From positions 2,361,001 to 2,425,000 of the forward strand of contig NC_134970.1 of NCBI RefSeq assembly GCF_965638725.1: a stretch of 64,000 nucleotides of DNA, written 5' to 3'. Positions 6,338 through 59,005 of the stretch are shown here, piece by piece. The DNA is from Aptenodytes patagonicus (lineage: Eukaryota; Chordata; Aves; Sphenisciformes; Spheniscidae). A program made the translations under genes and the position numbers. Numbering within the stretch: the first letter of the stretch is position 1; every line of letters begins with the position of its first letter. The notes under the pieces are model-generated. The model was given only the letters and a program-made list of their open reading frames with translations, was not told the origin of the DNA and ran no database searches.

Positions 6338-9300
6338 ATGGTGGTTCTCTTTCTCTTAGCAGCTTTGCTGCAAGGTGAGTCGCCAAGAAACCAGCTCTCC
6401 AGCCACTTACACTGACGAGAACAGGCAAAGCTGGAACCGGGGACACAGGTACATCCCCGGCTAAATCCTCACTAGTAGACACCTCCGCCTGCAAAATGGA
6501 AACTGGTCAAACCTCCCTGCCCACTATGCAGAGAGCTAGCAAAGGCATGGCAAGAGCTGGGAAGGAGAACCCCAGCTCTCCATTGCTCGGCACTGCAGCC
6601 AGCCACTTGTGCCTGTGCAATGCCACTGCAAGGAGAGGAAAGTTGCCAGATCAGGCAGAGTTTGCAAATGCCAAAGGTTATTAGATGTTTGCTGTTAACT
6701 GCTGCCCTTGACATTTAACTCCAGGCAGGACTGTCAGGGCTGATGGGGGTTTGGGGAATCCTGTAAGGGGCATCAAGGGTTTCCCCATTTGTGCTGTGGC
6801 AAAGGGGCAGTGGCTCTGCGCCGTCAGTTATCCCCAAGCGGATAATGTGGCACTTAAGGAAGGTAAAACACCACATCCAAAATAAACTCTGAACTTTCTG
6901 AGACAGATGTCCTACTTGGTGCCCTTGATTCGAAGGAGCTATGCCGGTTTTTGCCAGGCAAGAATCTGGCTGTCTCTAACCAACTACTTCTGTTTCTTTC
7001 TTTCCCACAAAGAGCCAGTCTCAGGTACCTTGTACGGAGCCAGATTTCTGACAGGTGAGGTTGGAGGATCGGTCACCCATCAGTGCTTCTACTCCATCAC
7101 GCCAGCCAACAAACACGACCGAAAATACTGGTGCAAAATAGCAGGAAGCGGCGTTTGCTACACCATCATTTCTACAACCGGCTACACCTCAAAAGACCAC
7201 GCAGGGCGAGTGTCCCTTGAGGACATCCCCCAGAATGGCACCTTCATGGTGACAATGACAGAGCTGAAGAAGAGTGACACGGGGACCTACCGATGTGGCA
7301 TCGGCACCACCAACAGATACCTGTATGTCAGCCTGAACCTGACGGTTTTGGCAGGTAGGATGCTGGCAGGGGAGAGGGGAGGCTCCGCTCCGCCGGCAGC
7401 CCGGCTTGCAGGGAGCGGTTTGGGGCCAGATGCTGGAGCATCCGCACAGCAGGCGTATCAACTTTTTCTACCCCGTGCTATTAACCAGATATTGACAATG
7501 ATGGGGTATAAACATACCCAGATTTGGCCAAATCAGCTGTTCATAAATGTAAAAGGAAACTCTCTCCTGCCTGGCTGGGGACTGCATGCCAGACAGTGCC
7601 TGCCATGCTCTCTCCCTACAGATGCCGGTGGGTTGAGACCGACCGAACTCATCCAGGGGGAGCTCCGTGGCTCTGTCACGGTCCTGTGCCCACCCGGGGA
7701 CACCCAAGGTGGTGAGAAGAGGTTCTGGTGCAAACTGGGGAGGACGAGCTGCGCTCTCATCGCCGACACCAATGGCTACGTGGGAAAGAGTTACCAAGGA
7801 CGAATCTTTATCACCCCTCAGGAGAGCTCTGGAGCTTTCAAAATCTTGATAAATGACTTAAAAAAGGAAGACTCGGGGCTGTACAGGTGTGGGACGGGAA
7901 GCCTTAGCAGTCAGAACAGCCCACGGGTGGTGGCTCTGCAGGTGACCGCAGGTAGGACGGGGCGCTGGGGGCTGCACGTGCTGCATGGGGTTCTTGCAGC
8001 CCTGGATGAGTAGCATGAAAGGCTAACACAGTCCTCTCCAACCTGCAGCCTCCACCCTTCCCAAGAGACCAAAATTTCTGAGCGGCACAGTCGGAGGCTC
8101 GCTGTCCTTGAAGTGCCACTATGATCCCAAGGGGAACTATGAGAAGAAGTATTTGTGCAGGTGGAAGGAAGCTAGCTGCTCACTGCTCGTGGACGCGGAC
8201 GGGTTCGTGCACGAGTCCTACAAAGGGCGAATACAAATAGCCAGCAGCGACCAGGAAAATGGGACTTACACGGTGGTGATGAGCCACCTGAGAGAGGAGG
8301 ATGCAGGATGGTACTGGTGCGGGGCTAAAAATGGGCACACAGAGCACACGTCCTCTGTGAAGCTGCGCATCCAGAAGGGTAGGTGGTGGGATGACTTGGA
8401 ACACAATAAATCCCTTTTCTTTTTTTAAATCACTCTTTCCCCTGCCCCTTCACAGGCATCAGGGGAATACACTCTCCTTTGTACTATGCATAAATATAAC
8501 AACATTATGAGAAACATCAGCTGTATGTTTTGCCTTACAGTTGTTGGCAAGTAACTGAGGTGAAGGTAAAGGTTTTCAGAGGCAGGGATGTAAGCTGAGC
8601 TTTCAGAGGAAATTTAGTTTGTTTGAATTATATTATTGATTATTTATGATGCAAACCCCTAGCATATGACATCCTGATCCTAGCAAGTGCAGCGCAGAGA
8701 CATGTGCTTTGCTCTGAAGATAAGCTGAAGGTTATCTTGCAGTTTTAGAAACTGCAGCATGTAAATACACAGATCCATGTAGCTGCTCAGCTGGCAAAGA
8801 CAGAAATAGTGGGGTTAAAGTATGAGTCTTTGCCAAGTATTAATGGGTTTTCATTAGTACTCCCAATCTGCTTTCTGTAAGACTTAAAGGAAAATAGAAA
8901 TGCTTGTGCTTGGTCATATCGTGCTGCATATTTTTTATACCGAGATGCAAGGTGAAATGCGTAAATCTTTGGTAAATTAACATGTTGTCTCTGCAAAAAG
9001 ATGGATATTCTTCAAAATAACTTTCTCAGTAGAAAACTGCTCTTCACAAGACCCAGAAACATCCACTCTTGTGAAACCCACTTTATCATCAAGTCCAGCC
9101 ACCTACAGCACGCCCACGCAGAGGAGCATCACGGGTCTGATGTACGTGATGGGCACCGTCACCGAGAGCACCAGCACCCTGCTGCCCACTGCCCCCTCCA
9201 GCACCTTTGTAACCTCCGCAAGCGAAATCTATCGCAAGAGGTAAGTTCATGGCCACATTTCTTGTTGGCACCAAGTTGGTGGTTTACAACCTGTCTGCCC

Positions 9301-12300
9301 GATTTCCTGGGGCCCTACATACATTGTGCACGGGTTGCAAGTTGAAAACACCAATAGGAGACATTAGTAATTAGAAAAGCAGAAGGCAAGGTTATCTCAT
9401 GTCCATCTGTGGCATGTATCTTTGAACTTGTCTCTAAATCTTCTGGTACTGGTCGCTCCTGTAGATCAGATGCCAGAGTCAATAGATGTGCTGCTGTCTG
9501 TTTTCCTTTGCTTAGTGGGGATACAGGACATTAGGAAACATTAGGCTTGAGCAATCATGCGGGTGAGTAAGTAGCTGCTGCATACTTCACTGCACACGTT
9601 ATCCAAGCCCTTACAAGCAGCCAGCAACCAGGGTAGCATTTGGGTGCTCTGTGTTGCATAAGGAGCTATCTTTGGACAAGGTTAATCAAAAGGCTGTGAG
9701 ATACTTTGGCCAGTAATTATTCCATGGCACTTCTCTACAGCAAGCCCTGCAGCTCACCCCGGTGCAAGTGGTTTCCCCAGTGAATTTACCTTCTGTGCTT
9801 CCTGTTACACAGGATGGCTGCGAGCAGCTCTTACACCTTTCACTCCAGCTATGGCCACCATCCAGCGCCGGGTGAAGTGATTTGCATAGCTGGTGCAGAT
9901 GCATCAGATATTGCAGTATCAGTCATAACTGAGGATAAACCACAAAGTCCACAAATCCAGTTCAATATTCTGAGCTGTCCCTCCATGCACCTTGGAGCTC
10001 GCATCTGCCCCAGTGACCCTCAGTAGGAGAAGCACCATCCTCTCCATCCCCAGCCTCCCTCAAGCCGTATCTCCTTGCCATCCAGCCAGAAAGACGAGGG
10101 GAGAGCCTGTTACCAAACACAAAATATGCTCTTGTATAAAGGGTCAGATTTTGCACCGTTCCTGGCAAAGCTCTGTCTGCCTGGGGAGCTCTGATAGCAT
10201 TTATATCTTTTTTGCAAGGAGATGGCACGTAGACACCCTCCAACAGCATGAGGGTCTACAACAACTCACAAAGAAAGAGTCTGAACCTCGCTTGTGAATT
10301 TGTGCGATGAAAATAGCTTGTTTTCCTTTTGGAGGGACTGATTCAGCTGGCAGCATAAACCCCACAGGGTAGAGCAGAGGCAAGCTGTAGAAATTACTCC
10401 TCATAAACCAAGCTCCAGATCAAATGATTTAATCTCTACTTGACTTTGTTGACTGTTCTCTGATTCAGCCAGAGTTTATAACTCCTTTATACTCTGGTGT
10501 AAAACCAGCAACCTGCATTAAGGTACTTCAGCCACACCATAGATGAATCAAAATCCAATTTAATTCTGATGGTTTGTCTTTCCAGCTCATCACGTGAATC
10601 ACATCTGCTCCCAGTTGTGTTACCAGCTCTCATTTTACTGATTTTCATCACTACTCTTGCCCTGATCAAAATAAAGCTTCGAAAGGAGACAGGTAAGTTG
10701 GCCAGGCAACACCTTTCGGGTTGAGGTTGTTGTTTTGCAATGGCTTTGCTTGCGATTTCCAAGAGCTGGAATCTGACCCACTGAAGATTTCCATCTCTGG
10801 AGACACGCGTCCATTTTGCAGCCAGTGCAGCCTGAAAGTCCAACTGTACTTGCAAGCAATGTCCTAGAGAAGTTGAAACAAAAAGCAAATGAAGGAAACG
10901 GAAATTCTGAAGTCCTGCTGAAAGCCAGGTTGAGCTTTTGTGTATAGAAGATTTACAGCTCCATGAGTGCTCGGAAGTCCTGAAGTATAAAGGGCAGGGA
11001 CCTGCGCGGTGCGAGCGGCTACATGCCGGGCGGCTTCTCGCGGCCGAATCCAGCCTGCTCGGTGCAAAGCTGACAAAGACTTGCCCCAAAAATCCTTGCT
11101 AATGACGTGATTTTCAAAAATATGTCCATATATCTTATTCTATAACATACTGTGTCCCTAGAGATAAATTTAGGGACAAAAACCTTCAGTGAGGACAGCG
11201 GTGAGTGGAAATACATTTTTCACAAGAGTGAAACTGGGAAACAATGGGCCTAATCCGGTGTCTGTTATGACATGCTTGTATATTCAAATAGGCATTAGAG
11301 GAGGTGTTCCTTCTGTGACATGCATATTTTTTGTTTTTAAGGAGAAGAAAGCAGCGCCATAGGAAACCTGGAAGCGGCGCCGATTCAGTCTGATCCGAGC
11401 CCTGTAAAAGAGCAAACGATGGAGGAAACCCTGAGTCCAGAAAAAGTGCATGAATGCAGGACAGACTCTGGCAAACATAGGTGGGTGTTTCTGGAACTGG
11501 TGCTGCAAGTGTCGTCTCCCTTGGTAGAAGAGAATAAACCCAAATTTTAAGCAAAGGGTTTGCGGCTTAGTATGTAAAAATACTTCCACAGGCTAGACAC
11601 CAGGCTTGCAGCCCAGGTATTACGATCCTGCAGTCCAGGATTTATGTTCTGATGCCAAACTATTGCCTTTGTTCCTTACCAAGAGATGTTGAGCCATAGA
11701 TTTCAAAAGACTTGGATTAAATCCCATATGAGGTTTATAAATTTATTATAGCATTGATTATAATTTTTGCTTACGCATAGTAAACATGTTATCGCTCTTC
11801 CTGCTTGCTTGTTTCAATAAAGACTGATTGCTTATGACCTCTTGCAATATTACACAGAAGCAATTCTTGTTCACTGTGTTGCAATCATATCATTCTTTTT
11901 TGTCCTACTTGTGCAGGATAATCTATGCTATCCTTGGAAGATTCAGGATGACCAACTTATGTGTAAGAGTCTATGTCTTCTGGCAAAATATAAAAATAGC
12001 GGGCCTGTCTTGGAGTATTAGTACTTAAGAGAGAAGCTCTTGTAGAAAACATCTGAGCAAATATTTTAAAGTATATCCAATTTGTGGAAACTCCCATTAG
12101 TGAAATGTACTCTTCTTCATTAAAGAAAAAAAAAAGGGTCAAACTTGGAGTAGTGGTTCGAAAAATTTGGTGATGGCATTTCATATTCTCATTACAATGC
12201 ACTTAGATCCAAACTCTCTGATTGTATAAGCAGGTGATAACATTTTAAAGTCAGATAGTTGCAGAGGCAAATAAGCAATTGTGACAATTTGCACCCTCTG

Positions 12301-12971
12301 GAATGAACCACCACCCCTGTGCACACTACTGCACGTACGCTTGTATTTCTTCTCCTATTTGAAACATCCACTGGCTTGATCAGAAGCAGAAAGCAGATCT
12401 ACAGACATCACATTTTCAAAGCTATGTAGAGAATATAACATAGACATATAAAGAAGTCTTCAGAGTGGCTTTAAAACCAAGGTCATTAAGGTTGAAATCT
12501 AGACTATTTTGTGGAGAGTGGTACAACTTGCTAAAACTATACAAGTTTTCTTGCTGTGTGAGATTTTACTTTACAAAAAAAAAAAAAAAGGAAGCTGTAT
12601 GAACGATTTTTGCAGGCCTAAATGTAAAGAATGGAAAGAAAAATTACACCACACACACCCCCAAACCTTGAAAATAAACAACCAACATTCTGTTAAAAAC
12701 TTCCAAAAATGAGAACGCAAACCAGAAGTTGCTAATAGTGCCTTTTGTTTCTAGATATCTGTTTTGGGGTAAAGCCCAGGATAACTCTCCTCTTAAGCTG
12801 AGCAGGAGGTTGACTCCAGCAGTCCCCTCCGACCCAGGTTTTTCTAGCTTTTTGTTCTCAGGACTCCCTGAAATATCAGACCCATTTAAAATATCAAGTT
12901 TAGCATAAAAACAGAAGCACCCACGAAATCACTTGTAAAAATATTGTAGAGAGGCAATGCCAGATCTCAGC

Positions 12972-13002
<31 letters not shown>

Positions 13003-13096
13003 TTACAGCAACCCTAAGGGGAAAAAAATGCTTTTCAAGGTGACTGACGAAGACTTGAGGCAGAACCGCCTTCCGTCAAACCCCCCGTGTACATGA
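6338..13096 (+). CDS. FCAMR: FCAMR-position pIgR-like receptor with three V-type Ig domains
   Basis: Coding exons: 6338-6374, 7013-7354, 7622-7951, 8049-8378, 9030-9240, 10586-10692, 11342-11480, 13009-13096. All have GT-AG borders and compatible phases, giving 527 aa. Exon 1 encodes a signal peptide (MVVLFLLAALL). Three single-exon Ig V domains follow (about residues 13-126, 127-236, 237-346), each with the pIgR-family disulfide pattern and an extra C-C' cysteine pair (for example HDRKYWC then GVC in D1). Then come a Ser/Thr/Pro-rich stalk (347-416), a membrane helix (about 424-444) and an 83-residue tail with no tyrosine. D1 keeps the KHDRKYWC loop used by pIgR and FCAMR for IgM/IgA binding, and ends CGIG...LNLTV as FCAMR D1 does. 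D2 resembles mammalian pIgR D3, and D3 resembles pIgR D4. The position next to PIGR, same strand, is that of mammalian FCAMR. A PIGR paralogue private to birds or sauropsids is the alternative; the symbol is an inference from D1 and synteny. Confidence 0.85.
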
Positions 13097-13259: not shown

Positions 13260-13265
13260 AATAAA
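13260..13265 (+). terminator. Poly(A) signal of the FCAMR-like gene
   Basis: A canonical AATAAA lies 164 bases after the stop codon and is followed within about 30 bases by a GT-rich stretch. This implies a short 3' UTR ending near 13285. Confidence 0.65.
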
Positions 13266-23750: not shown

Positions 23751-26700
23751 ATGACTTTACTAGCGTTCATCTTCCTGCTTGCCTTCCTCCCAGCTGAATC
23801 TGCAAGCAGCAGATATGCCCCCAAGGCAGCAAGTAAGTGTAACTTGTCTGGGGCACAGATCTTGTGGGTGGCCCAAGACCAGAGGTGGCATTACTAAGGG
23901 GGGAGCAGGGTTCAGAGCGTGTCTCTACCCCATCAGTGCCCATCACTGCCATGGGACCTTTCAGACCACATGATGCTGCACAGCCCTGGGTCCGCACTTG
24001 CCCCGGTACACCCGACCTGCTCTGCAGTCCCATCGGGTTGTGCAGCACAGCTGACATTTACAGCCAACATGTTTTCCTCTTGCAGTCTCCAGCCCTGTGT
24101 TCGGACCACGGCAGGTATATGGTCTGCTCAACGGGTCAGTTACAGTGAAATGCTTCTACCCTCCCACCCGCGTGAACAGACACGACAGAAAGTATTGGTG
24201 CAGGCAGTCGGCCATGGGCTGCATGACCGTTGTCTCCACCAACGGCTACACTGCTCCAGGCTACGAAGGCAGAGCCTCCATCACTGACTACCCACAGGCA
24301 GAAAACTTCCAGATTAACATCTCTGAGCTTACAATGGCAGATGCAGGCACCTACCAGTGCGGTGTTGGTATCAATGGCAGAGGGCTCTCCTACAAAGTCA
24401 GTCTGGATGTTTCTAAAGGTAATTACAGTCTTAGGGCTCCTTAAAGTATTATTTTCTTTTACTTCTCCCCCCCCTCCCTTTTTAATAAGGCTCCGCAGAT
24501 TGTCTGTCCAGTGTCTAAGAGCTCAAGATGCTCCATGCTTTTGGGAAACCAGCAGTTTTCATTTTCCCCTGTACTCTTACAGAATGAATTTTTTTACTAA
24601 AAACATAGCATAAAAATCAGACTAAACGAACCTCATCTTAAGATCACAAACATTGCTTAGAAACTGCTGACCTCTCTCGGCCATTAAAGTTTAGGGAGAT
24701 GCAGTCAGGGGGCAGAACTGCCCATCACTCCGATGTACCCTCCAACCCACGGCTAAGGCTGTGCAAGCCAAACCTGTGCTCAAGTCCACGAGAACGCAGC
24801 GTGCAGGACGGCACCACACTTCTGGGCAAGGCCCAGGGTGCAGAGCACGGTGCAAACTCATGGCACGGCCCCTGGCAAGAAGGCTCTGGGAGAAACTCCG
24901 CTATAGAGCAGGCAGTGATATAGCATAGAGACCGTAGTCCTGAAATGTGTGACAGACATGGGACACAACTGGGTAGATCATGCTCTGACCAGGAGTGGCA
25001 CATGGTCATATAATATAGCAAAGTAGAGAGAAACCCTATGCTAAAAAAAAGCCTTCAGAGGTATAGGGGAGTTGCACACAGTTACCAACAGAGCAGGCAG
25101 TAGACACTGACTGATGTCTCTGTATGCACAGGTCCACATGTACCCGAGGGCGCTGAGCTCTTCTATGTGAAGCTGTACAGCACTTTGACCATGTCCTGCA
25201 GCTTTGGGAAGGAGTATGAGAGCGTGAGGAAATTCTTGTGCAAGATGGAGAAAAACGGCTGCCATAACGTCATCGATAGTTATGGGAATATCGATAAGAG
25301 GTACACAGGGCGAGCTCTGCTGAGCAATGAGGATCTTCCAGGCTCATTCAGCATCGTGATAACTCAGATGGGCTGGGAAGACTCTGGCTTGTACCTGTGC
25401 GGGGTCGGCTTCTATGGGGAGAGCGGAGAATCGAAGGAACTGGACGTGCATGTCTATGAGGGTGAGTAAGCTATCCCCAGTGTTTTTTCTCTTCATCTCT
25501 GCTTCTCTTTAGAAGGATCGCTAGCAGCCTCACTTTATTTAACAGTCTCACTTTATTTAACAAGAACTTTAGTTTCCCTTTGCAGAGTGCTATTATCCTA
25601 TCCTCTCATCTAGATACTTCCTTCTATTCATGTAACTCTAATGTACTAAACCATCACTAATAAAGCTTGTATCAAGACTTAACTTTCTCAGCAGTGGCTA
25701 GCTATCTTCCCCAGTCTGGCTAGCCCAAAACTCCAGAAGGCAAATTCTGCCTACCAGTTTGAGACAAGCAAACTGTCTCTTCAAGTCTTAATTCCTTAAA
25801 TCTCAAAATGACAGATGTAGAAAGAAGACCTGCCCTTCCCCTAGCGAAGGGAGCAAAACTTTGAACTGTCAGTACACAAAGACAACAACCACCCAGTGAA
25901 TTTGGGAAAAAGAAAGGCGTGACAGACCCTTTAGGGTCAATTCCTAGCAGTGCCAGGACAGCCTCCTACCACCTGCACCCCTGAGCTTCACCTAGCCTTG
26001 CTTTAGCCAAAACAGCTTTGTTTGATCTGATATTTATTCTCTTGGGAGAGTGCCACATGGGCAAAAGTTAGACATGTATAGATGCTCATTTCATTTTTAT
26101 CTCCAGAGACAAAAGTTCCTCAAGCAAAGCCCACAATAATCGGAGTAAAAGGAAGTTCAGTAACTTTTGAATGCCACTATGAGTCTCTAAAAAAGTCATC
26201 AGTGAAGTACTGGTGCAAGTGGAGACAGAACGGGTGTGCTCGGATCATAGAGAGCTCCGGGTATGTGTCGGAGTTGTATGAAGGAAGAGTGGCCATGTAC
26301 GACAGCCCAGATAACAACACGATCACCATCATCCTGAACCAGCTGAAGGACACTGACAAAGGCTATTACTGGTGCATGACAGATGAGGATAAGGAGCAGC
26401 AATCATCAACTGAGCTGAAGATCATAGACGGTATGAGCTTGCGCGTTGGCAGTTCTCTGCCTGCTCAGCAGGTAGAAAACAACCTCGTAAGCACCACAAA
26501 GGAGCAGATCTGGCTTTTTAGGAAGAGATCTGAGGTCCAGCTCTGAACTTCTGTCTCATAGGGTGAAACATTGTGCCAATCCCCCCACATCTCAGTAGCT
26601 TTAAAAATGGAAACACAAGGTTTCAGTTTTATGGGAAAGTGTTCACAAAAATTTCTCATGCAAGTATTTCTTAAGCATTGCAAAAAAAAACCCAAGCTTT

Positions 26701-29700
26701 CACCCAGAGATGCATATACAGCATCCTTAACATTAATTTAGCAATGTAAGGAGCACTTTCCCTCAAAGATACGTCTCCTGGTTCATCATGTCTAGCAGCA
26801 CCACTGCCTGTTGACTACCATTCCCACCACTGAAACCACTAACGTCAGCCTTGATGTTCTGCTTGCCCTTGCAGGAGAACCTGGACTGAAGGGAAAGAAG
26901 GAAGTGGACGCGCAAGTGGGTTCACGGGTCGATTTAACTTGCTTTTATCCATGCAAGTACTACTCCTACCAGAAGTACTGGTGCAAGTGGAGCAGCAGCA
27001 GATGCATCCCCATGCCTGCTTCTGACCAAAGGCAGCCGGGGCCAGACGTTACCTGTGACACTGACAACAAGACAGTTATCCTGAGCTTTGACTCAGTGGC
27101 AAAGACAGACCAAGGGTGGTACTGGTGTGGAGTGAAGCGTGATGGCCTCTTTGGGGAAACCATGGCAGTCTACCTGCGGGTGACCGAAGGTGAGCTCCAA
27201 GGCAAAGGCAGGCAGGGGCTTTCCTGCTCCTCAGGGCTGTGAATCATGCTGCCTTCTGCTGAGAGAGAAGTCCTCTCCATATCCACTAGGTTGCAGCACC
27301 TCAAAACAGAAGAGCTCTCATCCAGACAGCCTCACAGACTAGGTGCCAAGATCACCATGATTTTGCGCAACTTGTCATAGAAGTTTTCATCCACTCACTG
27401 GTTTCTGCTTCCTGGTCATAAAAACCCCCACCGGTTTAAAAATCACTTCCTTCCACACCATTTTTACTTTTTAACCCTGTCCTTACTAATTATTGCTATT
27501 ACAATTTGTAACATCATTTAGTTTAAGCAACATCTGACACCTGTCAAGTGAAGGTGACTGCATGTAGTTCAGAGACACATCTTGCTCCAGGGAGCTTATT
27601 TTAATAAACAGGAGAACAGTAGGGAGCAGGAAAGGCAGGGCTGTCACCAACTCCCCTTGGACAGCAAGGGGCTTAGTCTCAGCTTTGGTGCAGTATCTTA
27701 TTTTTGGGAGGAAGGAATATTGTTAGAAGCAGAGCAGAGAAAAAGTATAGCACTAGATATCCCACATGCAACCTCCCTAAGCGGATGATGGTCAAAATGA
27801 AAACAGAGGGAAACAGCCTCATTTCGCTGCCTTTGGCAGGCAAAGAGCCAGAAATAAAAGCAAACCAATTATTCGAAGTTTGTTCAGGAATCACTAGAGG
27901 TAGAACTCAAAAATGCAAGACTTCTCAAAAGTGTATAGGTAGAGAGAGCCTACTTGAGATTTTTGCAATAAATTATTTGGAATGAGATTATTTCAGATCT
28001 CTAAACCCCATTTTAAAGAGCCTTTTATGTGCAGCCAAAACCCGCTGCAGTTCCACGTGCACCAAATATGCCCAACCAGTTTTTGTGTCACCATCTCCAT
28101 GCTGCTGCTCACGCGACTAACCGCCCTTCTTCCCTGGGAAATGTAGGTATCAGTGCCGACCGCAACCTAGAGCTCCTGAACGTTGATGCCCCCAGCCCTG
28201 CCAAGGGTGGCTTTATTCCCCAAGGAAGAGCGTACAGCGGTGCAGAGGAGCAAAGCGCAGCTGCCTCAGAAAGGTTAGTTCTCTCCAAGGCTCTGTCATT
28301 TATCATTTTCGTGACGTTTATATTAACCTGTTGTTGGTACTGTGTTTGCACACTGCATGTAAGGTATAGCAACAAAAAAAAAATCTTGCCCTAAAGAACT
28401 TAGCTCAAAACATCAGAGGAAAAGAAGCAGAAAAGTTACAGCAAAAGGCAAGATGTCTTGAAATTAATTTCTAGCTCAAGAAAATACAGTCCCAGAAGGG
28501 AACAATTAGAGATTCCAGGTACCAAAAAACTAATTGAAAATACTTCTGTCAAGATTAGAGAACTTTCTTTCACACATTTATAACCAAGCTGCTGATGTAG
28601 CTGGTTTGGCACAACCGCTGGCCTACATTTTTATTTGTTCCCCTGTGATGTGCTGGGATCCAGTTCATTAACTGAATTGCATCGTGCTCACTGAGATTTA
28701 CCATCCTATATAGATGTTAGACTACTGCAAATTCATATACATTATTCAGTCTTGAATAATGTATTTAAAAAAAAAAAAAGTATTTCACAGTTTAGTGATA
28801 TATCTTTCCCTCCGTTCCAGCTCTGATCAAAGCCATGGCCCCAATGTACTTCTTTTAGTCCTGGGCCCTGTTGGTGCCGTGCTCCTGATCGTTGCGACAG
28901 CTTTTGCCGTTTTTAAATACAGGCAGCTGAAGAGATCTGGTGAGTCCTGGCCTTTTCTAGTCTCTCAAGAAAAGTCAGCAATATTAAGACAAAGGCGATG
29001 CCTTGTGCATGCTGCCATCTGTGCTGGGCTGAGCTGCTCCCCTGGCACCCCCGTACGCGATGGGCAGACAAGGGACCCTGCTTCTCCCACTGACCCCACC
29101 CATACAGCTCAAACACCCAGCTTACAGGGTGCCCAGGCTGAGGCAGAGACCACCCCTCTGTGGGCTTTGCGCGTGGCATTGCACGGTGTCTCCTTGCACA
29201 GAGGCAGTTTGGACACCAATGCGCTTGCACCGACTGAGCAAGCATGCAGGGTATTTATCTCCTCCCTCTTAACAGACCTCGTGTCCGTCGGGAGCTACAG
29301 GACAAACATCAGCATGTCAGACTTCGAAAGTGTGAAGGAGTACGGTGCAAGCAATATCGCCTGCGTGAAAGAGAGCCAGGAGACTCAGATAGGAGGGGAC
29401 GGTAGGTTGCTGACTGATGGGTTTGCTCTCCATCCCCAGCGCGAGAGGTGCCGGGGAAGGGGTTTGCAGAAGGACCCTACAAAAGCCACAGAAATACCTG
29501 CCCACAGATGCCCCCCACACCCTAACACCTCCCTTTCTCTTCCTGCAGAGTTCATCGCCACCACGGCCACCCCAGAAAGTGCTGCCGAGACAAAGAAGGC
29601 AAAAAGGGTAAGAGGAGGCAGGAGAGAGCCCACTGACCTGGGAGGCACCGCCACAGCTCTCCAACCTCCACCAAAGGAGCTGCCTTCTCCCAGGGGCCTT

Positions 29701-35614: not shown

Positions 35615-37559
35615 CTAATGAGATTTCTCCATCCAGTCTAGTAGGATGTCCAGCTCACCCAGGGATTTAATTGCTGCAGATGTGACATTCAGCTGAAATG
35701 GTATAAAGGAACAAGTTGTAAGCAAAGACAGGGGGTACAACCCAATGTAAAGAGAATCCGAATATCTGCGTTAATTACTAGACTTAGTCATCAACTTACC
35801 CCTTCATAGTTCACAAGTATTTGCTTAAATTTCTTAGCGGATTCCTGTCCACACATGCACTTATTTTGCTCATGCTAGAAAAATAAGATAGAATTCATTA
35901 GGTTTGGGGGTTAATTTTTAAAAATAAGAGATCAGTTTCTAATTATGCTGGAAATCACTGTATAGACTGAGACCTTGTTAAACTCTGGAAAAGGCTGCAG
36001 GTCCTTAAATCAGACTTCAGCTAAGAACAGAGTTTACTTTGATAGACAGAGGGACAGGATAAATATCTTTCTTGAGAACTAACGTGGGAGTTGGCTGATG
36101 AGTGGCAAGTATAAAAATTTCTCAGCAGACATACTCAGTCTTCACATCATGCTTCTTTGTATTCTTGTTAAAAACATTTTTATAAATAAAGATTTTGTAA
36201 CTTTATAGAACACTTAGGTTTATTTATATACCAAATACTAACAGATGAAACTAAACTGTGGCAATACCCAAGACTTACACACTGCCCAAGTTTCCTCTTC
36301 ACGCTGAGGAAGGAGTTGGCTATGCTGCTGATTTTTCGGTTGACATACGAATCCTCGGTCTTGCAGTGTTTGAAGACTTTGTCCACGTAGAAGTTGAAGA
36401 GGTGATGGGTGATGCAGCATCTATCTGAAGACTTAAGGAATAAATTTCATTTTTAAAAGGTCTCCCAAAGTGCGTTAAACCCGTAGTTGCCAGCCTTTCT
36501 GCCCCCCTCTAGAATAATCCATCTCTAGCACCAAGCATGGTAGCCAAGCACAGCAGGCTGTTTTGACTCATATAAAGCTTTTTCAGTGATGCTTGATGTA
36601 AATTGATAATATATATATAGGAAATCATTTTAGACTGATTTTCCAGGAGATCCATCCTCAGCAAGTCTCATTGAGTCAACAAAATAATTAGCTGATTTTG
36701 CAGCTGGGTATTAGAGGCTGAGACCTGAAGCAGTGGCCCATGTCTATTGCCTTAGAGCATAAGAGAGCTGAAAAATACTTATTTGTAATATATTTCACCT
36801 CCCAAGACCACATTCACCTGCTTTTGGATTCTTTAATAGCTTTCCACCCAAATCCTGATTCACCTCGCTATGCCTCCACTGACCGAGGTGGTGGGCAGCC
36901 ACAGCTAAAGCTCCTGTAAGTAGAGCATCACATGCAACAAAAAAAAATCTCTGCCCACCATTTCTGGAAAGCCAGTCAGGGTGAAAGCCCGATGCAGGAA
37001 CCGGCAGTGGGACACCCACCTCTTTTCACATACGTGATCCGCATCACTTTATCCTCCCTGACCTGCGCTGTCTGCCAGCGTCTGTGTTTCGCTGGAACTT
37101 AGAAGTCATGGTATTAAATAACTTCCCCAAACGCCCTGAGCTGGCACACCTCATGACCGGTGTTAGGATGCTAGCTGGTCAAAATTATTCAGAGAAAAAC
37201 TGGAGACACAGTAAGGACACCTACCTTAACCCTGTGCAGAGAGTGCGGGTAAGACAAGATGCTCAGGGTCCTGATGGGGTCTCTGGCTTGCTGCACGGGA
37301 GAAGACAGAGATGGTGATGTACGTGCTGGCTCCAGAGGCGCTTTGGGAGCAGCTGACTAAAGAGCTTCCCAGCTCCACAAGAGCCCGGAGCAATACTTAC
37401 GATGTTGGCTTTAATTGCGGTGAAACCAGACCTAATCTCAGTCACGCTCATTGAAATCCTGCAGGGTCCAAAGTGGAAGATTTTGTTCCCAGCTGTCGGC
37501 ATCAAATTCAGCCAGCATGACATGGAGAAGAGGTAGAGGAGCAAGTGGGATCCTTTCAT
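35615..37559 (-). CDS. IL20: IL20-subfamily cytokine (IL20/IL19 type)
   Basis: Minus-strand coding exons: 37401-37559, 37225-37290, 36279-36431, 35800-35874, 35615-35692. All introns are phase 0 with GT-AG borders; 176 aa, the same length as human IL20. Residues 1-24 form a signal peptide. The cysteines fall at 33, 80, 81, 126, 132 and 134, the IL20/IL19 pattern that gives three disulfides. Diagnostic pieces are the EIRSGF helix, the short QARD...LSIL second exon, RKISSIANSF, and the C-terminal SLGELDILLDWME. The FGPC and EIRSGF parts look closer to IL20 than to IL19, but the two cannot be separated without a tree, and the symbol is provisional. The start MKGSH was chosen because it aligns with the mammalian start; an in-frame Met seven codons upstream (37578-37580) is possible. 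C98 is an extra, apparently unpaired cysteine. Secreted ligand, expected to act through IL-20 receptors on epithelia. Confidence 0.9.
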
Positions 37560-48899: not shown

Positions 48900-51171
48900 T
48901 CAAGATCGTTGGAGGCCATCTTGGGCACAGCGATCATGAAATGATAGAGTTTTTGATTCTTGGAGAAGTAAGGAGGGGGGTCAGCAGAACTGCTCCCTTG
49001 GACTTCCAGAGGGCAGACTTTGGCCTGTTTAGGAGACTGGTTGACAGAGTCCCTTAGGAGGCAGTCCTGAAGGGCAAAGGAGTCCAGGAAGGCTGGACAT
49101 TCTTCAAGAAGGAAATCTTCAAGGTGCAGGAGCAGGCCATCCCCATGTGCCGAAAGACGAGCCGGTGGGGAAGAAGACCAGCCTGGCTGAACAGAGAGAG
49201 CTTTGGCTGGAACTCAGGAAAAAAAGGAGGGTTTGTGACCTTTGGAAGAAGGGGCAGGCAACTCAGGAGGACTACAAGGATGTCGTGAGGTTATGCAGGG
49301 AGAAAATTAGATGGGCCAAAGCCCAACTAGAACTTAATCTGGCTACTGCTGTAAAAGACAATAAAAAAATGTTTCTATAAATACATTCACAACAAAAGGA
49401 GGGCTAAGGAGAATCTCCATCCTTTATTGGATGCAGGGGGAAACAGTGACAACGGACGAGGAAAAGGCTGAGGTACTTAATGCCTTCTTTGCCTCAGTCT
49501 TTAATAGTAAGACCAGTTGTTCTCCAGGTATCCAGCCCCCTGAGCTGGAAGACAGGGACGGGGAGCAGAATGAAGCCCCCATAATCCAAGGGGAAATGGT
49601 TAGCGACGCTACACCACTTAGACACATGCAAGTCTATAGGGCCAGATGGGATGCACCCAAAGGTACTGAGGGAGCTGGCAGAAGTGCTCACCAAGCCACT
49701 TTCCATCATTTATCAGCAGTCCAGGCTAACGGGGGAGGTCCCAGTTGACTGGAAGTTAGCAAATGTGATGCCCATCTACAAGAAGGGCAGGAAGGAGGAC
49801 CCAGGGAACTACAGACCTGTCAGTCTGACCTCGGAGCCGGGGAATGTTATGGAGCAGATCATCTTGAGTGCCATCACACGGCATGTACGGGACAACCAGG
49901 TGATCAGGACCAGTCAGCATGGGTTTATGAAAGGCAGGTCCTGCTTGACTAACCTGACCTCCTTCTATGACAAGGTGACCCGCTTAGTGGATGAGGGAAA
50001 GGCTGTGGATGTGGTCTACCCAGACTTTAGTAAAGTCTTTGACACCATTTCCCACAACATTCTCTTGGAGAAACTGGCTGCTCGTGGCTTGGACAGGCAT
50101 ATTCTTCGCTGGATAAAAAACTGGCTGAACGGCCGAGCCCAGAGAGTTGTGGTGAATGGAGTTAAATCCAGGCGGCGGCCAGTCATGAGCGGTGTTCCCC
50201 AGGGCTCAGTTTTGGGGCCAGTTCTGTTTAATATCATTATCAACGATCTGGACGAGGGGATCGAGTGCACCCTCAGTCAGTTTGCAGACGACACCAAGTT
50301 GGGCGGGAGCGTTGATCTGCTCGAGGGTAGGAAGGCTCTGCAGAGGGACCTGGACAGGCTGGATCGATGGGCCCAGGCCAACTGTATGAGGTTCAACAAG
50401 GCCAAGTGCCGGGTCCTGCACTTCGGCCACAACAACCCCATGCAGCGCTACAGGCTTGGGGAAGAGTGGCTGGAAAGCTGCCTGTCGGAAAAGGACCTGG
50501 GGGTGCTGGTCGACAGCCGGCTGAACATGAGCCGGCAGTGTGCCCAGGCGGCCAAGAAGGCCAATGGCATCCTGGCCTGTATCAGCAATACAAGTGTGGC
50601 CAGCAGGAGTAGGGAAGGGATCGTGTCCCTGTACTCGGCCCTGGTGAGGCCGCACCTCGAATACTGTGTTCAGTTTTGGGCCCCTCACTACAAGAAGGAC
50701 GTCGAGGTGCTGGAGCGTGTCCAGAGAAGGGCAACGAGGCTGGTGAAGGGTCTAGAGCACAAGTCTTATGAGGAGCAGCTGAGGGAACTGGGACTGTTTA
50801 GCCTGGAGAAGAGGAGGCTGAGGGGAGACCTCATCGCTCTCTACAACCACCTGAAAGGAGGTTGTAGCGAGGTGGGGGTCGGTCTCTTCTCCCAAGTAAC
50901 AAGCGACAGGACGAGAGGAAACGGCCTCAAGTTGTGCCAGGGGAGGTTTAGATTGGACGTGAGGAAAAATGTCTTTACTGAAAGAGTGGTTAAACATTGG
51001 AAGAGGCTGCCCAGGGAAGTGGTGGAGTCACCATCACTGGAAGTATTTAAAAGACGTGTAGATGTGGTGCTTAAGGACATGGTTTAGTGGTGGACTGGGT
51101 AGTTAACGGTTGGACTCGATGATCTTAAAGGTCTTTTCCAACCTAAACAATTCTATGATTCTATGATTCTA
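48900..51171 (+). mobile_element. CR1 LINE, 5'-truncated, about 2.3 kb
   Basis: The element starts within ORF2 downstream of most of the endonuclease region (GGHLGHSDHEMIEF-like frame near 48915) and runs to the typical CR1 3' end, with ATTCTATG repeated at 51150-51168. The first 700 bases contain several frame changes and stops; the rest is open. The exact left boundary is uncertain by some tens of bases. It is not an autonomous element. Confidence 0.95.
49651..51087 (+). pseudogene. CR1 ORF2 reverse transcriptase, C-terminal 478 codons open
   Basis: Uninterrupted frame covering the CR1 reverse transcriptase core and C-terminus. Visible motifs: [20 protein letters not shown], the [15 protein letters not shown] block, and the catalytic FADD box at about residues 211-214. 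The FADD box and the DFSKVFD aspartates are intact. The frame extends a little upstream of the first Met ([12 protein letters not shown] in CR1), then is broken by frameshifts: 49147-49380 carries an upstream ORF2 part in the same frame, 49431-49630 continues in another. The N-terminal endonuclease is missing, so it is scored as a broken gene despite the long open part. Confidence 0.9.
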
Positions 51172-55691: not shown

Positions 55692-58600
55692 ATGCAAACC
55701 TGCTCAGCCCTGGTCTTGCTGCTCCTGGCTGCCAGCACCCTGCCTGCCAGGTGCTCGCCCACCGAGCCCAGCTGCCTCCACTTCTCGGAGCTCCTGCCTG
55801 CAAAGCTCAAAGAGCTGAGGATCAAGTTTGAGGAAATTAAGGATTATTTTGTAAGTATAACGCTGCTAGTCTCTCCTCCTTCTTGTTTTGCTTTTTTTTT
55901 TTTTGCAAAGTTCAGTGATTTGGATAAGGGGGAAGACAGCTTCCTCCCAGCAGAAATGATTTGGTCGTGTGTTGTGTTACAGGCTGACAGGGGTGAGCAA
56001 AAGAAGTTCAGTTTCATTGCTCACTGAGAGACAACACGCAAGGGTTTTCTTCCTAGTTTTCATTACAATGAACTCAAGAGATTTCATAATGAATCTTTGT
56101 GAACTTTACTAGCCAGACTTCCCCCTAAATGTTGCAGAACAAATTATTCACTGAATTAATGGGAAGGAAATAGTCCCTTCTTCAGGGCAACGAGGTCCAG
56201 CCTCGCTGAAGTCAACGCTAGATGAAAAGGGAAATCTTTTGCTACAGACTTTTTCTTTGAAAGAACCACAAAAGCCTGAACATGGTATTTTATGACTGGA
56301 GAAACGCTACAGTAACTAGCACTTGCTGCGGTGCCTGTAAAATGTCACTGCTTTGCATTGCAGCTAATGAGAGCCTCAGGGTTGCTGAGAAAGCAGTACA
56401 AGATACACTCAGAGCATTTGTCATTGCATCAGTACTGATGGAGATGGTTGGTCACGTCTGTGTTACCATTTTAGTTAATGTCAGTGTGTTTTAGCAATAA
56501 AACAAGATAATTCTCCAGATTAAATCTCAGGCTAACGTCATGACTTGCATTTATTATCAAATGAACGCAGTCAAGACTTTAGATTTAAAGCTTGCTGTAA
56601 ATCTCCCAGTTAAGGTTGGGAAGGAATATTTTTAACCTCTCAGGGAAGCTTGGTACCTTGGTGCCATGGGGTGATGCTTTGGCTGGTGCCAGCCCACCCC
56701 GCTGCTGCAGCTCTCTGGTCTTCCAGAGCTGACGGTGCAACAGAGGCACCACAAGAACAAACACCCTCTGCAGATCCCTTTTCCCTATTGCCTGGAGACT
56801 CACAGAGATAACAAAAACGGGGGGGGGGGGGGGGGGGGGGAATTAAACCCTCCTGCCCTGGCAAGCCTGTGGGCAGACAGGCTGGGGTGGATACCTCACC
56901 TTCAGGGGCTGCCATAACTTTGACACCCATCGTGTCGGCGGTGAGGTTTGCATCAGCACTCTTACATAAACACCCTCTGCAGCTGAGGCGAGCGTGCGGT
57001 GCTGGCAGCGGCGGGAGGAGTTTCACATTAACGAAATCGATGGTACTGAAGTTTGTGATTTCATTATCTTGCTGTCTTGACCTAACAGTAGTTCCACTGC
57101 AAGATTACGGACCAAAGAAGGGGTGACTGTTGTATCTGGTGTTACTGTGCTATGCACACAAGTGTGCTGGCTGCTCTTTGTCTTCGCTGCAGTGAGACCA
57201 TAAATGCAAACAAGGAAAACGATCATTCGGTAGGACAAAGGGAAAAATAGTGTTGACTGCCTCTCTAAGTAAAGCTCATGTTTCCATTGCATCCTTCTAC
57301 AGCAATCAAAAGATGATGAACTTAGCATCCAGTTGCTCAGCTCCGAACTGCTGGATGAATTTAAGGTAAGAATTATAATTATTATCTAAGTCCCTTATCC
57401 TTCGGCCAGTGTTTTGTAAGAAAGGAAGCCGATTATAAATTGGGGCATTTTCAGTGTCAGACAAGGACAGTTCTCCAGCCAAGCAGTAACACATGTGTCT
57501 GCAGCAAGGCTGACGCGTGGCTCCCCCCACATCGAGCAGTGCTAACATGCTGCGAGCGCTCTGACCACCACCAAGATTTTGATTTTTAAAAACACTCACA
57601 CATCGGTGCTGGTGGCCGGCCCCAATGTGGTTACCTCCTCTCGCCCCAGGGGAGCTTCGGCTGCCAGTCGGTGTCGGAGATGATGCGGTTCTACACAGAG
57701 GAGGTCCTGCCCAGCGCCATGAGGACCAGCACGCACCACCAGCAGAGCATGGGTGACCTGGGCAACCTGCTGCTGAGCCTGAAGGCAACGATGAGGCGCT
57801 GTGTGAGTGGGGCTCAGCATCATGGGGGGGGGGTGAAATCAGTGCTCCGGCAAGGCAGGGCCAGTCCCAGACCAGCAGCAGGGTGGGGAGCGGGTGCTGG
57901 GTCTTCCCAGGAGCAGGAGCACGGGTGTCGGGATGGTGCAGCGGAGCAAGGCTCCGGGCAGGCACCCCATAAGGATGGGGTTTCTCGTAGTCCCTGCTCT
58001 CCAGGCTTTCATCAGTTAAATACTGATGATTCAGAGGCTCTGTTCAGGAGCACCACTTATTTGCAGCCAACCCCACCCAACTCAGTCTGCTGAAGAGATA
58101 AGGGGAGGGTGGGCGGAGGGTCCATCCTTTACCTGGGCGCCGGAGCAGCGGAGCAGCGTGGCTCTGCGACGATGCCTCCCGAAACCACCCCCGGTGCAGC
58201 CATGACCCCATCACCTGCCACAGGCTGAGTCAGATGGGGTGAACCCTGCCCTAGGCAGAGAGCACCGTGGTGCTGCCCTCGCCCAGCCCCGGGGCCGGTG
58301 GCAACGGGCACAGGGCTGGGAAAGGGCTCGGGGTCCGTGCTCGGGTCGTGCCGTGCTCGTTTCACCAGTGTACGGTGCAAAGCAGCCGCAGTTGGTGCCC
58401 CGGAGAACCCCATGGCCACACGTGGGGAAGGGGAAGGTGGAGACTGGCGTGGCGGCAGTGACGAGGGGCAGGAGGAGGGGAGAGCCACTGCCACACACCC
58501 CGGGAAGGAAATCCGTGTGGTTGAAGCCGCTGCTTTTGTCCCTTTGCAGCACAGATTCTTCATGTGCGAGAAGAGGAGCAAAACCATAAAGCACATTAAG

Positions 58601-59005
58601 GAGACGTTCAATAAGGTAAGGCTCACGTGGCTGCGCTGAGGTTGGGAGGAACCCGCCGCCCCAGGCGAGGCAGCGGATTTTACTGCTGGCTTCAACTTAG
58701 GGCAGAGAACAGAGTCCAAAAGAGTCTTTAATTGTGTAAATACCTAAGGCAGAGAAATCCAGGGAGCGATGCTCGAAGGAGCAGCCAGCGGGTTCCCCAG
58801 AGGGGTGGGGCAGAGAAGCCGGAGATGGCGGTGGAAGGAGAATATGTCTCGCGATTGTACACCACGTATATCGTCGCATTCAGACTTAAACGGACTTGAC
58901 TTTCACCTGCAGATGAACGAGAATGGAATCTATAAGGCCATGGGAGAGTTTGACATTTTCATCAACTACATCGAAGAGTACTTGCTGATGCAGAGAAGGA
59001 AGTGA
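55692..59005 (+). CDS. IL10: Interleukin-10
   Basis: Coding exons: 55692-55850, 57303-57365, 57650-57802, 58550-58615, 58913-59005. All introns are phase 0, the conserved five-exon IL10 structure; 177 aa. Residues 1 to about 22 form a signal peptide. Landmarks: CLHFSELLPAKLKELR, FEEIKDYF at the exon 1 end, LLSSELLDEFK in exon 2, FGCQSVSEM and HQQSMGDLGNLL in exon 3, ETFNKMNENGIYKAMGEFD across the last intron, and the C-terminus FINYIEEYLLM. Four core cysteines (28, 79, 125, 131) fit the two IL10 disulfides. The protein is a secreted homodimeric anti-inflammatory cytokine acting through IL10RA/IL10RB and STAT3. A TATA box lies upstream and AUUUA elements downstream, consistent with inducible, short-lived mRNA. 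It is very close to the chicken protein as I remember it. Confidence 0.98.
56819..56840. repeat. 22-base G homopolymer in IL10 intron 1
   Basis: An unbroken run of 22 G on the plus strand, the longest homopolymer noticed in the window. It lies in the RNA-sense strand of IL10 intron 1 and could form a G-quadruplex; its exact length may be a sequencing or assembly artefact. Confidence 0.85.

Follow-up and report, generated by a model that had tools for sequence, protein, structure and literature searches.

The closest described relatives of the gene analysed here are pIgR, FCAMR, and FCMR. In mouse secretory IgA, as set out in the cited part of the structural report, pIgR D1 residues Asn30, Arg31, His32, Arg34, Thr48, Tyr55, and Leu101 contact the J chain, the Fc or the tailpieces, a bridge consists of D1-D3-D4 and D5, and D2 is described there as making no antibody contact; its authors expect bird secretory component to bind as D1-D3-D4-D5 (PMC7707832). 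In free human secretory component, according to the section cited, D4 Glu392 holds D1 Arg34 and D5 holds His32 (PMC4786434). The portions of the survey by Akula et al. 2014 used here report no FCAMR in birds or reptiles, place the origin of the gene in early mammals, and assign two copies of PIGR to chromosome 26 of the chicken (PMC4016189). In passages crediting Fulton et al. 2022, the chicken E blood system is attributed to FCAMR (PMC9957549, PMC11188259). Among the matches listed for the open-licence literature (titles and abstract beginnings, weak evidence of absence), none described a three-domain avian FCAMR, and the FCAMR and pIgR peptide letters occurred in none of the open-licence paper texts searched.

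We analysed a 64,000-nucleotide stretch of the Aptenodytes patagonicus genome (hereafter the window) and its surroundings, where the genes follow the order PFKFB2, YOD1, SARG (C1orf116), the gene described here, PIGR, and IL10; PFKFB2, YOD1, and SARG/C1orf116, the last with a Pfam match of 254.8 bits, are situated left of the window. The gene sits in the slot between C1orf116/SARG and PIGR, on the same strand as PIGR. In mammals, the order around FCAMR matches the one found here. The exons of this gene in the FCAMR slot are the following:
6338..6374, + strand: exon 1, signal peptide, phase 1 out.
7013..7354, + strand: exon 2, V1, FCAMR / pIgR-D1 type; most pIgR-D1 ligand contacts kept.
7622..7951, + strand: exon 3, V2, pIgR D3 (D2/D3) type.
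8049..8378, + strand: exon 4, V3, pIgR D4/D5 type; Lys at the Glu392 equivalent.
9030..9240, + strand: exon 5, stalk rich in Ser/Thr; contains a single cysteine and an NxS site.
10586..10692, + strand: exon 6, transmembrane segment, phase 2 in and phase 1 out; resembles the PIGR transmembrane exon.
11342..11480, + strand: exon 7, cytoplasmic tail.
13009..13096, + strand: exon 8, tail end and stop.

The eight exons, at 6338–13096 (+), splice in frame into a product of 527 aa with its stop at 13096; all seven introns are GT-AG, in phases 1, 1, 1, 1, 2, 1, and 2, and a poly-A signal (AATAAA) stands at 13260, downstream of the stop. The product consists of a signal peptide, three single-exon V domains (V1–V3) with four cysteines each, a Ser/Thr-rich stalk of ~77 residues (S or T at 32 of 77), a transmembrane segment, and a tail of 83 residues that contains neither a tyrosine nor a dileucine motif; the human FCAMR tail likewise lacks a tyrosine. 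Pfam V-set matched three stretches of the 527-aa product with 124.5 bits. Much of what the initial annotation said of the structure is borne out: the FCAMR position by SARG, YOD1, and PFKFB2 on the left and PIGR and IL10 on the right, the eight-exon gene with three single-exon V domains by in-frame GT-AG splicing and the three V-set stretches, and the absence of a D5 equivalent and of a tail tyrosine by a V-domain profile search of the window and by the tail as read. Rfam gave no match, nor did a scan for bacterial promoters, which is not relevant to a bird gene, and a single-sequence structure prediction for the signal peptide plus V1 (pLDDT 45) was set aside. As a separate observation, an open frame at 9813–10026 follows a good acceptor in frame with exon 5 and stops short of any transmembrane segment; it may be an alternative last exon or encode a soluble isoform, for which the next poly-A hexamer comes only at 10670.

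Downstream, the window holds PIGR and IL10:
24091..24417, + strand: PIGR D1 (V part of the exon).
25131..25460, + strand: PIGR second V domain, D3 equivalent.
26106..26429, + strand: PIGR third V domain, D4 equivalent; Glu392 kept.
26874..27188, + strand: PIGR fourth V domain, D5 equivalent; the alignment shows its extra cysteines.
28816..28941, + strand: PIGR transmembrane exon, borders approximate.
29284..29400, + strand: PIGR tail exon, with a GSYRTNISMSDF stretch that is absent from the upstream gene.
57590..59005, + strand: IL10, two open frames, Pfam IL10 above cut-off, similar to chicken IL10; right-hand anchor of the locus.

PIGR was named by its domains and by the tail exon with GSYRTNISMSDF, which we take to be the PIGR tail motif. 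The window contains seven V domains, three in the gene in the FCAMR slot and four in PIGR at 24.1–27.2 kb, and an HMM found no further V domain within it; since that HMM was built from the same seven domains, it is informative only in finding no others. Elsewhere in the window, an open frame at 36180–36446 (–) resembles an IL19/IL20 exon and had no Pfam match, and a 500-codon open frame at 49585–51087, presumably CR1-like, matches the Pfam reverse transcriptase family RVT_1 with 117.5 bits. Outside the window, two further V-domain clusters were seen: one at C16:715–735 kb, CD300-like by look as far as we can judge, which served only as outgroup, and a second at C22:4.273–4.293 Mb, ~1.9 Mb further along the window's own contig, which we take to be TREM- or CD300-like by look. 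Searching the 1.35 Gb assembly with the human FCMR V domain returned six matches, all in PIGR and the gene in the FCAMR slot (best two tied at 67.4 bits), and no FCMR gene within what the search scores. Relatives were sought by pattern in viral contigs, with no match, and in prokaryote genome contigs, where none of the 56 pattern matches was a relative.

The first V domain compares most closely with FCAMR and pIgR D1, the sole mammalian FCAMR compared being one unverified human sequence (the provisional FCAMR below). V1 is 46% identical to this provisional FCAMR, 44% to bird PIGR D1, and 40–42% to human and mouse PIGR D1, against 34% to FCMR; bird PIGR D1, for its part, shares 51–52% with mammalian PIGR D1 vs 44% with V1. 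With the provisional FCAMR V domain as query, V1 came top of the whole genome (108.8 bits vs 90.0 for PIGR D1), whereas in the outward direction, against 18 other domains, provisional FCAMR was best only narrowly (110 vs 108 for mouse PIGR D1). In trees, V1 joined provisional FCAMR with UFBoot 44–79 in the six runs that included FCAMR and 93 with eight outgroup domains; grouping V1 with PIGR D1 without FCAMR was not rejected (AU 0.216). The FCAMR/pIgR-D1 character initially read into V1 is borne out by its first place in the genome, with a thin reverse margin, and the comparisons support V1 as an FCAMR / pIgR-D1-type domain.

V1 also keeps six of the seven D1 contacts in the cited part of the secretory IgA report (PMC7707832), with Arg31 replaced by Lys; by the same list, provisional FCAMR and bird PIGR D1 each keep seven, human FCMR three, V2 one, and V3 none. 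Over all 11 places in the table of that report, V1 equals human D1 at 8; besides Arg31, it departs at 53 and 97, where mouse differs as well. FCMR shares the D1-type V domain but has a single domain and, in human, fewer of these contacts than V1. At the Glu392 place, V3 has a Lys, and the PIGR of the same window keeps the Glu.

The second and third V domains align as one stretch to D3–D4 of human and mouse pIgR, with 141–147 bits. Scored alone against human pIgR, V2 was closest to D3 (55.1 bits), followed by D4 (47.4), D1 (46.2), D2 (34.2), and D5 (13.6), and it joined D2/D3 once eight V domains were added to the trees (UFBoot 88; 78 without FCAMR); in trees of at most 19 domains, however, the values for V2 were 9–22, and by summed column score D3 rows (145.7, n = 3) and D1 rows (145.3, n = 3) were practically equal, which counts against a clean D3 label. 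V3 alone scored 74 bits against D4, with D5 (41–48), D3 (40–47), and D1 (40–45) behind, and grouped with D4/D5 in small runs (UFBoot 77–88). The initial naming of V2 as D3 and of V3 as D4 therefore stands as to best score, but V2 joins D2/D3 in the larger trees only, and V3 is of D4/D5 type rather than cleanly D4. The string AGWYWCGA, offered as a mark of D4, does not serve as one: by eye in the alignments, it is nearer to D5 (mouse DEGWYWCGV) than to D4 (AGFYWCLT). A constraint pairing V3 solely with bird PIGR D5 was rejected (AU 9e-6).

In two trees, the bird PIGR domains clustered with those of mammalian PIGR, and V1, V2, and V3 all fell outside. The larger trees (27 domains with FCAMR) drew their extra outgroups from the best 8 of 11 V domains of the C16 and C22 clusters, and trivial splits were left out of the UFBoot ranges (V1 with FCAMR, 100, and bird PIGR D1 with mammal D1 and FCAMR, 93, in the FCAMR-less run; V3 with D5, 100, in the D5-less run). 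Bird and mammal PIGR excluded V1 from D1 with UFBoot 60–94, V2 from D2/D3 with 85 (larger trees; 80 without FCAMR), and V3 from D4 with 84–97, while bird D3 joined mammal D3 with only 43–70. Pairings with the bird PIGR partner drew 0–7 for V1, 1–3 for V2, and 0–5 for V3; V2 and V3 share only 28% and 31% identity with the domains of the adjacent PIGR. Because bird PIGR groups with mammalian PIGR to the exclusion of V1–V3, the duplication that gave rise to the gene in the FCAMR slot probably predates the bird–mammal split. In both genes, the transmembrane exon begins in phase 2 and ends in phase 1 (judged by eye for PIGR). Compared with the PIGR exon, that of the gene in the FCAMR slot scored 62, where 2000 shuffles averaged 27; against provisional FCAMR, the transmembrane part scored 44 vs 27 (p 0.009), weaker than against PIGR. 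The likeness to the PIGR exon in score and phase favours tandem copying of the whole gene.

How old that copy is, and whether it arrived whole, depends on how far other histories fit the same domains. Akula et al. 2014, in the part cited, counted two chicken PIGR copies and no FCAMR outside mammals (PMC4016189), in line with their proposal that mammalian FCAMR arose from mammalian PIGR independently; the present gene would then be a second PIGR copy specific to birds or sauropsids. A recent avian PIGR copy comprising all three domains had AU 0.065 without provisional FCAMR and 0.082 without FCAMR and FCMR, not rejected at 5%, and an arrangement with FCAMR beside mammalian PIGR and V1 beside bird PIGR D1 reached 0.056 even with provisional FCAMR included. 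Yet with that sequence in the trees, the recent copy fell to 0.003 (19 domains) and 0.021 (27 domains) and FCAMR confined to mammals to 0.027 and 0.046; together with the low support for bird PIGR partners and a slot identical to that of mammalian FCAMR, these values make a separate bird copy unlikely in our view. The claim of an old tandem PIGR duplicate, and the domain trees proposed to check it, came out in part: V1–V3 lie outside avian PIGR in the best trees, but a recent copy is rejected at 5% only when provisional FCAMR is included. The direction of the trees is the same throughout, and their strength rests partly on that one provisional sequence. Single-domain constraints were never rejected (AU 0.08–0.43), nor was an entirely old, collinear order in which V2 pairs with D3 and V3 with D4 (AU 0.18), which was not the best tree.

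Less probable again is a one-domain ancestor, in which V1 is FCAMR and V2 and V3 were copied in later from PIGR in the sauropsid line. Single-exon, phase-1 domains would shuffle easily, and pairing V2 with bird PIGR D3 and V3 with bird PIGR D4 was not rejected at 5% (AU 0.058, 0.094, and 0.105); the exclusion of V3 from D4 and of V2 from D2/D3 by bird and mammal PIGR, and the low identity of both to their PIGR neighbours, count against such a gain. We give little credence to V3 as a D4/D5 hybrid left by unequal crossing-over when a four-domain receptor collapsed to three, its first 80 residues D4-like and its last 28 D5-like. The score contrast does flip sign once residue 80 (of 108) is passed (p 0.044 by permutation), and V3 joined D5 with UFBoot 62–78 in six small runs that included D5, but the switch test is not calibrated, being significant on two of three control domains, ordinary D4 domains (p 0.011 and 0.015); the UFBoot value drops to 8–13 with more outgroups, and an ancestral D4/D5 state accounts for the pattern equally well. 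That the gene is a pseudogene or a wrong joining of exons is very improbable: the exon joins were read from genomic sequence, with a possible alternative last exon at 9813–10026, but against this stand seven GT-AG introns with matching phases, the absence of any internal stop, four cysteines per V domain, and a poly-A signal.

Of these histories, we favour as reasonably likely an orthology with mammalian FCAMR: this bird gene would be an ancient product of tandem PIGR duplication whose three pIgR modules (of D1, D3, and D4/D5 type) sit on a short stalk rich in Ser and Thr. With mammalian FCAMR it shares the slot beside PIGR, a D1-type V domain, a stalk, and a single transmembrane segment; the mammalian protein differs in having one V domain on a long stalk, vs three on a short one (~77 residues) here. 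With bird PIGR (D1-D3-D4-D5) it shares one exon per domain, phase-1 borders, a similar transmembrane exon, and the D1-D3-D4 order, but PIGR has a D5 with extra cysteines, Glu392, and a GSYRT tail stretch, all three absent from the upstream gene, and the split between the two is probably older than birds and mammals. Going by name and place in the cited passages, chicken FCAMR, the E blood system gene, is probably its orthologue (PMC9957549, PMC11188259), and the second PIGR copy that Akula et al. 2014 counted on chicken chromosome 26 may be the same gene (PMC4016189, as cited). Because the chicken E blood-group gene has already been published as FCAMR, the gene itself is known; what is new is its three-domain architecture, a variant of a known receptor. 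This architecture and the likely age of the gene contradict the 2014 survey, as far as its cited portions go (Akula et al., PMC4016189).

In its mechanism, V1 would dock on J-chain-containing polymeric IgM or IgA through the CDR contacts of pIgR D1, and V2–V3 would run along the antibody, like D3–D4 in secretory IgA. Given the missing D5 and a Lys where closed pIgR uses D4 Glu392 to hold D1 Arg34, we infer that V1 is permanently exposed, in an always-open, reversible receptor; without D5 and tail tyrosine signals, neither a covalent IgA bond nor transcytosis would be expected. Judging from these residues, the receptor would be always open, non-covalent, and non-transcytosing for polymeric Ig; the initial suggestion that it could bind without covalent capture or transcytosis is a reasonable one. 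Binding would be reversible, with immune complexes displayed or cleared at the blood-cell surface instead of being carried across epithelium. On the simplest reading, which is also that of the initial annotation, mammals may have trimmed FCAMR by loss of the distal domains, the mammalian protein being a reduced form with a long stalk in place of V2–V3. The full account—FCAMR as the product of tandem duplication of an entire multi-domain PIGR gene before the bird–mammal split, a three-domain, permanently open, non-covalent polymeric-Ig receptor kept by birds on circulating cells, the mammalian one-domain form as a secondary reduction, and the published early-mammal origin wrong—seems to us evenly balanced between true and false.

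If true, the IgM/IgA receptor family would have to be redated, and birds, with FCMR not found in this genome, would gain a candidate IgM/IgA receptor. The gene would then also be a natural experiment on the pIgR domains required to bind polymeric antibody without transporting it, and it would bear on the role of the chicken E blood-group antigen on red cells.
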